From NCBI GenBank assembly GCA_937944295.1, contig CALDZL010000024.1, positions 1-56,619 of the forward strand: DNA of 56,619 bases. Reading direction: 5' to 3'. The notes beneath the pieces were generated by a model, which was given only the letters and a program-made list of their open reading frames with translations, searched no databases and had not been told where the DNA came from. The position numbers and the translations under genes were made by a program. Below, one piece after another: positions 1 to 2,113 of this stretch (position 1 is its first letter; every line of letters begins with the position of its first letter). The stretch comes from an uncultured Sphingorhabdus sp. (GTDB taxonomy: Bacteria; Pseudomonadota; Alphaproteobacteria; Sphingomonadales; Sphingomonadaceae).

Positions 1-143
1 ATTTAAATTTTTCTATTTGAGTTTTAATAATTTACAGAGAACCTTAAGTTGAAGGTATTGGCTTTAAGCGAGCTTTTGCTAAGTTGTGTGGTGCTTCCCT
101 CTCATTATTACGTAATTAACTCCCCTAGCAAAACAGGTGCACA

Positions 144-1022
144 TTGGACCTCAAACAGATCAAATATTTTTTGACAATCGCTGAAACTCTTAATTTTACT
201 GTGGCATCTGAGCAGAGTCATATTTCTCAACCTGCCTTAACAAAGTCCATACAAAAGCTCGAAGAAGAGTTTGGCGGTCTCTTGGTCATTCGTGATGGCA
301 AGAACACACGCCTAACCGAATTAGGGCAGATTGTGCGCGAAGAGTTTGAGAATATTATCAAATCTCAAGCACGCGTTAAATCACTCGCAGACAATCATTT
401 AAGAGCAGGTCACCACATGCTCAATATTGGCATAATTGACTCGCTCGGCCCTAATAAATTTATTGATTTTTTTACTGAATTTATGGGCAAAAACCCCAAC
501 ACGCAAATCATTATGCATCGCATCGATGAATCACTCTCAGAAGAAGCCATATTATCAGGTGATTTGGATGCTTGTATCTGCACCCAAGAAGGGACAAAAA
601 ACCATAAAATTAAAACGCTTCCCTTGTTTGAAGAGCGCATATTATTGGCCTTTGGGAAAAATGCAGTTTTGGCCGATAAAGACGAAATAGCATTGGATGA
701 CATCTGTAAAGAAAATTATTTTGATAGGTTAAATTGTAATTTCCGATCTGATTTCCAAGCCATTATTGATGAACAAAAACTTGATATTAGACCTGTATTA
801 CAGAGCGACCGCGAAGAATGGATCCAATATTTAGTTGCCTCTGGAAAAGGCATTTGTATGCTAGGTGAATATTCGGCTATTGTTCCTGATATTATAATGC
901 GGCCAATAAAAGGCGTGAATATTAAACGAACCACCTCTATCTCTATGGTATTTGGTTCTTCTGCATCAGAGGCAATTATGACGCTGGAACGATTGGCTCA
1001 GAATTACAAATGGTGCTCTTAA
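144..1022 (+). CDS. LysR-family transcriptional regulator
   Basis: A 292-residue DNA-binding regulator of the LysR type. Residues about 1-62 form the winged helix-turn-helix (start MDLKQIKYFLTIAETLNFT, with the family-typical SQPALTKSIQKLEEE recognition segment near 28-42). Residues about 90-290 match the periplasmic-binding-protein-like effector domain. The likely start is TTG at 144, because the first residues after it match the conserved LysR N-terminus; no better ATG lies upstream. No intact divergent target gene is visible. Downstream lies only a decayed uxuA fragment, so its regulon cannot be read from context. Family assignment is secure; effector and targets are unknown. Confidence 0.9.
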   Translation: MDLKQIKYFLTIAETLNFTVASEQSHISQPALTKSIQKLEEEFGGLLVIRDGKNTRLTELGQIVREEFENIIKSQARVKSLADNHLRAGHHMLNIGIIDSLGPNKFIDFFTEFMGKNPNTQIIMHRIDESLSEEAILSGDLDACICTQEGTKNHKIKTLPLFEERILLAFGKNAVLADKDEIALDDICKENYFDRLNCNFRSDFQAIIDEQKLDIRPVLQSDREEWIQYLVASGKGICMLGEYSAIVPDIIMRPIKGVNIKRTTSISMVFGSSASEAIMTLERLAQNYKWCS

Positions 1023-1044
1023 AATAATCCAAACTACCAAATCG

Positions 1045-1092
1045 ATAACCTCCAAATCGCATAACCTCCAAATCGCATAACCTCCAAATCTA
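1045..1092. repeat. 16-bp tandem repeat, three copies
   Basis: The unit ataacctccaaatcgc occurs at 1045-1060 and 1061-1076. A third copy at 1077-1092 differs only in its last two bases, and a partial copy (ccaaatcg) precedes at 1037-1044. It sits just after the lysR stop and touches the 3' end of the uxuA remnant. Seen directly; no function is evident. It may mark slippage at a rearrangement junction. Confidence 0.8.
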
Positions 1093-1378
1093 TACATCGC
1101 ATGCCATCATCGCTTTAATTACGCCGCATATTTCGGCAAGTCCTTTCATCCTGCCCATTGCTGAATATCCTAGATTAATAATTTGTCTTACATCATTTGG
1201 TGACCATGATCTGGCCGTATAAAAATTTCACGTTGCAAGACATGTTCATTACTCAGCAAATTTCGAATAATCTGCACCATATCTATGCCACTTTCTAAAT
1301 GGCCTACCTCAAAGAAAGAGCGTGTTCATGAGTATCACATGCCACACCACGTAAGTGCGCAAAACAATATCAGATTGT
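1090..1378 (-). pseudogene. uxuA: Decayed C-terminal fragment of mannonate dehydratase (UxuA)
   Basis: Read on the minus strand, this stretch encodes in three successive frames the C-terminal signature of mannonate dehydratase. The pieces are CFAHLRGVACDTHEHA (about 1375-1325), SFFEVGHLESGIDMVQIIRN running to REIFIRPDHGHQMM with an in-frame stop right after (about 1322-1188), then NLGYSAMGRMKGLAEICGV ending at a stop at 1090-1092. The order and content match UxuA (RPDHGHQM...NPGYSAIGR.KGLAE.RGV), an Fe/Mn enzyme of hexuronate breakdown. At least two frameshifts separate the pieces, and the N-terminal three quarters of the gene are missing. I am confident that it is a dead remnant. Confidence 0.85.
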
Positions 1379-1420
1379 AAAGGCAGAGACCGAAAAGCCG
1401 ATACCTTTTGAACTATAGGC

Positions 1421-1482
1421 AGGGTTTAAGGCTTTACTGGGTTTGGCCGGACCAGTTAAAACCCAGTAAAACCGCAAACCCT
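1421..1482. repeat. Long imperfect inverted repeat (24-nt arms)
   Basis: Arm 1421-1444 (agggtttaaggctttactgg and four more bases) is the near-perfect reverse complement of 1459-1482, with only a few mismatches and a 14-nt loop that starts ggccgg. A second, small hairpin follows at 1543-1559 (tctgag, 5-nt loop, ctcaga). No coding sequence accounts for either. They lie upstream of the C4-like RNA and may belong to the same leader transcript. Function is not known. Confidence 0.7.
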
Positions 1483-1584
1483 TCTGCTTGCCCTACAATG
1501 GCTAAAAGCCGAGCAACTGGGCCATAATATCCGTTTCAGGCGTCTGAGGGACGCTCAGAGGGGTTTAACCTATAATTTACAGCG

Positions 1585-1613
1585 TTGCACAAATTCCAGC
1601 AGCGCGCTAGTAA
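1585..1613 (+). promoter_or_regulatory. Possible promoter for the C4-like RNA
   Basis: TTGCAC (1585-1590), a 17-nt spacer and TAGTAA (1608-1613) resemble a sigma-70 promoter. It would start transcription near 1620, about 30 nt before the folded RNA. This is pattern matching only; the -10 is a poor match. Confidence 0.3.
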
Positions 1614-1650
1614 TGCCTTTGCAGCGGTCAAAACGCCGTTGTGGGGCTTT

Positions 1651-1758
1651 AGAACCTCAAATCGTAACCGCCGGTCGAAGCTATTTCGGCCGGGTGGCCG
1701 TCATATATGTCCAGGGTCCGCCTAAAGGTGGCGGCGCTCTGTGGTTACGCAGGGTTCT
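1651..1758 (+). ncRNA. C4/CI-like antisense RNA candidate
   Basis: This segment folds into a clear multistem element. The outer stem is agaacc (1651-1656) with ggttct (1753-1758), and the next stem is cgtaacc (1663-1669) with ggttacg (1743-1749). Inside are two hairpins: ccggtcgaa/ttcggccgg (1671-1693, loop gctat) and ccgcc/ggcgg (1718-1734). Two segments are complementary to the leader just downstream: gccgggtg (1689-1696) to cacccggc (1762-1769), and cctaa (1721-1725) to ttagg (1810-1814) in the Shine-Dalgarno region. A closed junction with two hairpins carrying segments a' and b' that pair with sites around a downstream RBS is the architecture of the C4 antisense RNA of phages P1/P7 and the CI RNA of P4. 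The class name is my inference from structure, not a database hit. The stretch is richer in G+C than its surroundings. Confidence 0.6.
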
Positions 1759-1761
1759 AAA

Positions 1762-1818
1762 CACCCGGCTTTGATCGCCACAAGATCAAGCTGGTTTGCC
1801 TCTTAATCATTAGGAGGC
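1762..1818 (+). promoter_or_regulatory. Structured leader and antisense target that hides the RBS of the next ORF
   Basis: Two hairpins lie between the C4-like RNA and the ATG at 1823. The first pairs ccggctttgatc with gatcaagctgg (1765-1794, one bulge). The second pairs gcctcttaat with attaggaggc (1798-1818, one G-U pair). The second buries the TAGGAGG Shine-Dalgarno (1811-1817) that serves the ATG five nt away. The segments cacccggc and ttagg, the complements of the two exposed segments of the upstream RNA, are located here. The arrangement suggests translational control. It is seen in sequence; regulation itself is inferred. Confidence 0.55.
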
Positions 1819-1822
1819 AGAT

Positions 1823-2026
1823 ATGAAATATCCGCATGACCATAGCAAAGATATTGCTAAGTATAGATATGTTAGCCCCCCAAAGCATGGGCGCAATTCA
1901 GTACAGCCAAAACGTAAAAACCGAAGTAACTTACCCACTTTGGTTGAAGCTTGGATCATTGGACTATTATTATATGGGTCAATGGCACTAGGGCTCTGGA
2001 ATTTTATCATAGAATTTTTACAATAA
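1823..2026 (+). CDS. Small putative single-pass membrane protein behind a regulated RBS
   Basis: A 67-residue ORF that I do not recognise. Residues 1-40 are strongly basic and polar (PPKHGRNSVQPKRKNRSN); residues about 43-65 form one hydrophobic segment (VEAWIIGLLLYGSMALGLWN), so an N-in membrane protein is likely. A strong RBS (AGGAGG, spacing 5) precedes the ATG but lies within a hairpin. In phages P1 and P4 the gene controlled by the C4/CI RNA is a small host-cell-division inhibitor (icd/kil). This ORF occupies that place, but I see no sequence similarity I could name. It ends 11 nt before the tRNA gene. Confidence 0.6.
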   Translation: MKYPHDHSKDIAKYRYVSPPKHGRNSVQPKRKNRSNLPTLVEAWIIGLLLYGSMALGLWNFIIEFLQ

Positions 2027-2037
2027 AACCAAACACA

Positions 2038-2113
2038 TGGTGCCGCTTAGAGGACTCGAACCTCTGACCCCATCATTACGAATGATGTGCTCTACCACCT
2101 GAGCTAAAGCGGC
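2038..2113 (-). tRNA. tRNA-Thr (anticodon CGT)
   Basis: The minus strand gives a full cloverleaf: acceptor GCCGCTT pairing with AAGCGGC, D arm TAGCTCAGGTGGTAGAGC, anticodon stem CATCA/TGATG with loop TTCGTAA, T arm with GGTTCGAGTCC, discriminator A and encoded CCA (2038-2040). Anticodon CGT reads ACG, hence threonine. Its 3' end points toward the small ORF and the C4-like element, the usual geometry for an element integrated at a tRNA 3' end. Confidence 0.97.

Follow-up and report, generated by a model that had tools for sequence, protein, structure and literature searches.

A gene for a 67-aa protein in an uncultured Sphingorhabdus sp. is preceded by DNA predicted to encode a long, nested RNA structure, and this locus raises the question of what the RNA is and how it acts on the gene behind it. 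An earlier note on the 56,619-nt stretch of DNA analysed here (the window) had read it as an antisense switch of the type of C4 (phages P1 and P7) and CI (phage P4), lying outside any visible prophage. With moderate confidence, we favour the reading that it is a C4-like translational-control RNA module of a superfamily that includes sRNA-Xcc1, reused outside phages, in which pairing of an antisense segment (a') with a target segment in the leader (a2) holds the downstream gene at a low level of expression. The parts of the locus are as follows.

1585..1614, + strand: candidate promoter TTGCAC-N17-TAGTAA(T), read from the sequence
1621..1642, + strand: small hairpin P0, presumed 5' end of the RNA (predicted fold; its position is kept, its sequence is not)
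1649..1760, + strand: outer stem P1 (1649-1657 with 1752-1760); 96.0% of alignment cells paired
1663..1749, + strand: inner stem P2 (1663-1669 with 1743-1749); 97.2% of cells paired
1671..1693, + strand: hairpin P3, its 3' arm overlapping a'; 98.5% of cells paired
1689..1696, + strand: antisense segment a' (GCCGGGTG); co-variation with a2
1697..1735, + strand: hairpin P4 with the conserved internal loop ATGTCCAGG / GCCTAAAGG; conserved alignment columns
1762..1769, + strand: target segment a2 (CACCCGGC); co-variation with a'
1765..1794, + strand: predicted leader hairpin covering a2 (computed fold)
1795..1821, + strand: hairpin enclosing the Shine-Dalgarno sequence (computed fold; locus-specific in relatives)
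1823..2026, + strand: gene for the 67-aa protein, no Pfam match

The neighbours are a LysR regulator, tRNA-Thr, a protein of the citrate-transporter family and chorismate synthase, which fits the claim that no prophage is visible around the RNA. Since the window starts with the first base of the contig, the context further upstream was taken from the sister genome G011 only, with translations read by eye. The 67-aa protein carries, by eye, a hydrophobic C-terminal stretch and is probably membrane-bound; PHROGs and PADLOC searches with its sister copy (L163) gave no match.

The region 1620-1770 had an MFE of -70.4 kcal/mol (z = -4.76), and none of 200 shuffled sequences was as stable. The nested stems around two hairpins described earlier were recovered both in the predicted fold, as drawn, and in the co-variation across 100 distinct relatives. 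RNAalifold gave 35 pairs, 14 of them with compensatory changes, in an alignment of 16 sequences (A1). In an alignment of 100 distinct sequences (A2), 96.6% of the cells were standard pairs as against 78.0% after shuffling (a level like that of A2 was reached in none of 500 shuffles) and no more than 45.5% in slid controls, and both-sided changes were seen in 25 of the 35 stem pairs (six of nine in P1 and seven of seven in P2), counts that lean towards the model structure to which A2 was fitted. Within the P4 hairpin, helix 4 and helix 5 were paired in 98.7% and 89.5% of the A2 cells, respectively, and its internal loop was among the most conserved parts of A1. The hairpin over the Shine-Dalgarno sequence was locus-specific in relatives, with 5.56 for the own locus versus 4.91 (0/5000; 68 of the 81 loci used for the loop test below). 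Because of the compensatory changes in 100 sequences and these locus-specific hairpins, we conclude from the comparison that the folded RNA is real and conserved, with its structure under selection. By inspection of a 17-locus alignment, the sequence upstream was unconserved except for the small hairpin before the first stem; a third target that had been proposed there, tttcaggcg (1535-1543), is present in the window but falls in this unconserved part.

The claimed pairing of a' with a2 proved exact: gccgggtg (1689-1696) is the full complement of cacccggc (1762-1769), and relatives keep the complementarity with other letters. This pairing is absent from the structure of the covariance model. 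In A2, 98.7% of its cells were paired, and both-sided changes were found in 16 cells versus 1.9 after shuffling, at three of the eight pairs only; further pair types were not above shuffles (147/500). Eighty-eight A2 rows paired at all eight positions, 11 at seven and one at four, and the 11 distinct variant a'/a2 pairs of A2 gave 7.27 with their own partner versus 6.84 (16 of 10,000 permutations). Parts of a' and the loop are preset in the DNA search patterns, which biases L050-L192 there; in 60 loci obtained from model matches instead of a DNA pattern, the own complement was longer, at 7.03 versus 5.95 when permuted (0 of 10,000). For the latter test, lower-scoring loci were chosen by hand from the listed matches of R1, a covariance model built from the 16 sequences of A1, a' and a2 were located by script, and a few rows (e.g. 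L195, L197, L202, L226 and L230) report a complement other than, or additional to, the expected a2. Complete a'/a2 codes switch together, as in GGTCGGGGAG/CTCCCCGATC.

In the predicted window fold, a' is buried in P3. With pseudoknots left out of the calculation, the cis fold in which a'/a2 is forced to pair was less stable by 6.4 kcal/mol, and the a'/a2 duplex was not chosen when the window RNA was co-folded with the leader. Complementarity of the leader to a2 was above that in shuffled leaders (4.28 versus 3.88, sd 0.10); a locus-specific pairing between a2 and the leader was rejected, since 4397 of 5000 permutations were as high.

A second contact had been proposed between cctaa (1721) and ttagg (1810) in the ribosome binding site. 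Both segments are in the window, but in a test on 81 of the 93 relatives the loop GCCTAAA was not specific for its own Shine-Dalgarno region, permutations being as high in 434 of 5000 cases with Watson-Crick pairs and in 1445 with G-U pairs included. The co-variation expected of the locus was found in the stems and in a'/a2; the cctaa/ttagg pairing was rejected as a conserved feature, and for the RNA type of the window a second loop complementary to the Shine-Dalgarno region, as C4 RNAs have, is unsupported. In RNAs of the non-phage type, the region after P4 was weakly specific for the Shine-Dalgarno region (28 of 5000 with Watson-Crick pairs, 79 with G-U pairs).

On predicted viral contigs, R1 matched seven of the first eight copies and all 16 newly found ones, three of these matches being partial (L183, L184 and L191) and one of the three, L184, weak as well. 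In 13 of these phage loci, the start codon lies 30-38 nt past the end of the R1 match. In 11 of the 13 (nine with Watson-Crick pairs, two only with G-U pairs), the Shine-Dalgarno region of the locus has its complement in an RNA segment that lies 34-44 nt beyond the conserved TGTCCA; the contact is absent in L056 and L057. This complementarity averaged 7.23 at the own locus versus 5.05 at other loci (0 of 10,000; 13 loci). A TTGAC hexamer was found upstream of the RNA in 12 of the 12 phage loci scored for promoters. The gene directly downstream encodes Phage_pRha in L051 and Bro-N in L052, L055, L056 and L057 (under the Pfam cut-off in L055), and that of L050 and L183 was not identified as an antirepressor in any search. 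Among 133 downstream proteins of all kinds of copies, the antirepressor-type Pfam families were Phage_pRha (four), Bro-N (four), ORF6N (three) and P22_AR_N (two), and PHROGs gave several anti-repressor families; these searches give counts, the assignment of ORF6N, P22_AR_N and sigma factors to individual loci having been read from translations. To judge from these sequences, the relatives in predicted phages follow the logic of C4, several of them directly upstream of antirepressor-type genes.

The CI RNA of phage P4 brings about immunity by RNA pairing inside its own transcript. Its likeness to the window RNA was proposed in the earlier note, and the third site upstream that was claimed for it is unsupported in the window. 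According to passages of two articles, C4 pairs around the ribosome binding site of the ant mRNA (PMC12197685) and has its role on this mRNA (PMC8546580). The window RNA resembles C4 of P1 and P7 in the long outer stem around two hairpins and in the position of a2 just 3' of the RNA, and it shares with C4 an a' whose complement, a2, stands in the leader right behind the RNA; the phage relatives have, as a further likeness, a loop whose sequence complements the Shine-Dalgarno region of the gene that follows. The sequence, however, differs. The C4 model RF01695, whose curated score is 45 bits, gave no match in the window at the gathering score or at E up to 10, and it matched two of 61 genomes, G000 not being one of them. 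As RF01695 misses the window and R1 misses two genuine C4 loci, membership in the Rfam C4 family was rejected. The window copy also differs from C4 in that a Shine-Dalgarno contact is unsupported and an antirepressor gene is missing, the 67-aa protein downstream being without a Pfam match. The two genuine C4 loci of the order have two contacts, as do the phage relatives, one before the start codon (TCTCCTAGAC or TCCTGTAGT) and one just 3' of the RNA (GTGCGAA or AGTACCAA); a' lies 3' of the Shine-Dalgarno-pairing loop in these loci, whereas it lies 5' of the P4 hairpin in the window RNA. The claim that the RNA works like C4 gains support from the antirepressor context and the pairings of the phage relatives, and the earlier note was right in kind, wrong in membership and wrong in one pairing. 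In another genome of the order, an isrK RNA is followed by a C4 RNA, both over the Rfam cut-off (L018, 1404-1588).

With Rfam 15, no family apart from tRNA reached the gathering score in the window, and nine further relatives that were scanned were likewise unrecognised. The nearest known family was sRNA-Xcc1 (RF02221, cut-off 53 bits), which matched the window with 16.9 bits over model positions 1-87 and L050, L052, L056 and L096 with 25.2-29.2 bits; L051, L055 and L057, and likewise the nine further relatives, were not listed at E up to 10. Thirteen of the 45 RF02221 matches in the class lie in genomes with R1 matches, and six of the 13 overlap R1 matches with E <= 0.001 in each search, scoring 33.9-40.6 bits with RF02221, all under its cut-off. 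Since these six loci match both models, we read the window RNA and sRNA-Xcc1 as the probable two ends of one superfamily. The two share a', a P4-type hairpin with an internal loop, a second hairpin and a2 in identical order, with a' and a2 pairing around the P4-type hairpin, and P1/P2-like arms apparently stand upstream of several RF02221 loci (by eye). They differ in that the Rfam model is without the 5' half (P1, P2 and P3) and closes a'/a2 as an internal stem, and in the internal loop, which is AAUACAA in sRNA-Xcc1 and UAUGUCCA...CCUAAAGG in the window RNA. A Shine-Dalgarno contact was clear by eye in four of 12 RF02221 loci (34 of 10,000 with Watson-Crick pairs, 499 with G-U pairs). Going by the title of Chen 2011, sRNA-Xcc1 is reportedly a trans-acting sRNA of integrons. 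In Xanthomonas, it is given as 88 nt by end mapping, with a Northern blot band near 100 nt, in a passage of PMC2996969, and an excerpt of PMC12189769 reports that a Xylella genome has seven homologues, of which five sit in a single genomic island. As end mapping gives sRNA-Xcc1 the full length of the RF02221 model, a' and a2 may both be part of the stable RNA. Among open-licence papers, mostly judged from listings, we found none that joins sRNA-Xcc1 or the window RNA to C4.

In the C4-like module that we favour, transcription would start at a putative promoter around 1585-1614 and yield the folded RNA (about 1621-1760), possibly processed to a small RNA, followed by the small protein gene (1823-2026). 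Segment a' (1689-1696) would pair with a2 (1762-1769) in the leader, on its own transcript or in trans on that of another copy, and the pairing would alter the leader fold and keep downstream expression low, the Shine-Dalgarno sequence being already inside a hairpin. In predicted phages, the module stands before antirepressor-type genes and pairs also with their Shine-Dalgarno region, and in sphingomonads it would have been reused for many accessory genes. The commonest position of the best promoter-like site was 20-29 nt before the RNA, with 45 of 108 non-phage loci and 10 in the next bin; the TTGCAC-N17-TAGTAA site of the window (1585-1613) fits this position. The best promoter score of the non-phage loci was slightly higher than that of shuffled sequences (mean 8.44 versus 8.10, sd 1.12). 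In the near-identical G011 copy, the promoter scorer preferred another site over the position of TTGCAC-N17-TAGTAA.

Alternatively, the locus could be a purely cis-acting leader with no RNA acting in trans, in which an H-type pseudoknot of P1 and a'/a2, or alternative folds, set the access of ribosomes; in a variant of this, a protein or ligand is possibly sensed through the conserved ATGTCCA/CCTAAAG internal loop. In most of the 60 loci, a2 comes immediately after P1, which would allow a cis pseudoknot, and the near-constant spacing of P1 and a2 in most of them, including the code GGTCGGGGAG/CTCCCCGATC, argues for a cis-acting leader, as do the high conservation of the internal loop, the RF02221 structure, which pairs a' with a2 in cis, and the two window folds 6.4 kcal/mol apart. 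However, the antirepressor context and the Shine-Dalgarno-specific pairing of the phage loci fit an antisense regulator, and the downstream genes share no common pathway that would suggest one ligand. We therefore regard a purely cis-acting leader as possible and, on balance, unlikely.

The distribution of the RNA bears on its reuse outside phages. When window positions 1560-1822 were used as a blastn query, three places in the genome of the window and six of 61 genomes, this one included, were matched; the wider query 1380-1830 matched six Sphingomonadales plasmids and had no DNA match in named phages. Within the order, R1 had matches in 140 of 396 genomes, which come from 37 of 84 genera; within the class, it had matches in 25 of 289 genomes, from 23 of 224 genera. 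In the genome of the window, there are three strong copies, with a further, partial one of 68 bases near a contig end. A DNA pattern scan of named genomes gave at least 119 stretches, mostly in Sphingomonadales, and R1 confirmed 71 of 80 and 33 of 39 pattern stretches among the matches listed. When aligned with G011, window positions 1-2113 had 96.4% identity (2033 of 2108 positions), and the next two stretches had 78.7% (1202 of 1528) and 84.1% (2438 of 2899). G013 and G035 have the same tRNA-Thr with the same neighbouring gene, lack the RNA there and carry copies elsewhere. From this identity pattern and this absence, we infer that the RNA and its gene are accessory at the window locus and may have travelled there with a block ending at tRNA-Thr. 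A duplication of tRNA-Thr as an attachment site was rejected, only short and unconvincing matches having been found.

In bacterial genomes and plasmids, the RNA stands before widely differing genes, few of which could be named with Pfam. A heuristic start finder picked 157 downstream genes, of which 24 that were short or doubtful were removed by hand and 133 were scanned; 21 Pfam families were found altogether, including sigma-70 region 2 (eight proteins), DUF5818 (five), SHOCT (four), DUF805 (three) and BamE (three). Several of the downstream products in the genus of the window are, by eye, small proteins with a hydrophobic stretch. Defence genes as a cargo were considered and rejected, since PADLOC found little among the 133 proteins (six families, three of them PDC-S05 models with three members each). 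As a separate observation, translations place the RNA directly before ECF sigma factor genes in L215, L228, L230 and L251, Sigma70_r2 being the domain found in eight of the 133 proteins.

A wider and more speculative extension, which we hold to be doubtful, is that this C4-like phage-immunity superfamily, sRNA-Xcc1 included, serves the Sphingomonadales as a control cartridge for mobile and accessory genes, in which copies of the same code on the genome and plasmids would silence each other in trans, codes would act as immunity groups, unrelated genes would form one regulon, and incoming DNA would be vetted. If this were true, the code GGTCGGGGAG/CTCCCCGATC, for example, would be a separate immunity group. 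The C4-like reading that we favour would by itself tie the integron sRNA of Xanthomonas to phage immunity RNAs and give sRNA-Xcc1 a candidate target in the leader and Shine-Dalgarno region of the adjoining gene, and a phage-type RNA switch would have been reused for accessory genes on a large scale, in the 140 of 396 genomes of one order. Cross-regulation could be tested cleanly with the differing a'/a2 codes.

The small hydrophobic-stretch proteins found downstream by eye in the window, L011, L014-L017, L059 and L121 would fit a guard like a type I toxin-antitoxin system, in which the RNA restrains a toxic small protein that is freed when the locus is lost. A parallel is seen in Xanthomonas, whose most widespread integron cassette has sRNA-Xcc1 upstream of symE, SymE of E. 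coli being described as part of a toxin-antitoxin system (both in passages of PMC12444791). Many downstream products are, however, longer, secreted-looking or regulatory, and PADLOC gave no match for L163. Such a guard is improbable; it could be a special case of the C4-like control module.

That the RNA is a decayed or passenger repeat with no regulatory role, as several copies per genome, a patchy presence and IS110 insertions into the RNA might suggest, is highly improbable in view of the compensatory changes across 100 sequences and the locus-specific Shine-Dalgarno hairpins.

IS110-family elements were found at the same base of the conserved loop, GCC(T/C)AAAG|TCTC, in L103, L058 and L112 (in L089, the left junction only). 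In the first three, the RNA resumes about 1.5-1.6 kb on, after the element; the transposase fragment of L103 matches PF01548, and the ORFs of L058 and L112 are similar by eye. These elements may insert into the RNA gene by preference. Upstream of the RNA, window positions 1416-1492 form a long imperfect palindrome that resembled microRNA models only, far under their cut-offs, and positions 1045-1090, right after the LysR gene, hold a short tandem repeat of about 16 bases (ataacctccaaatcgc).
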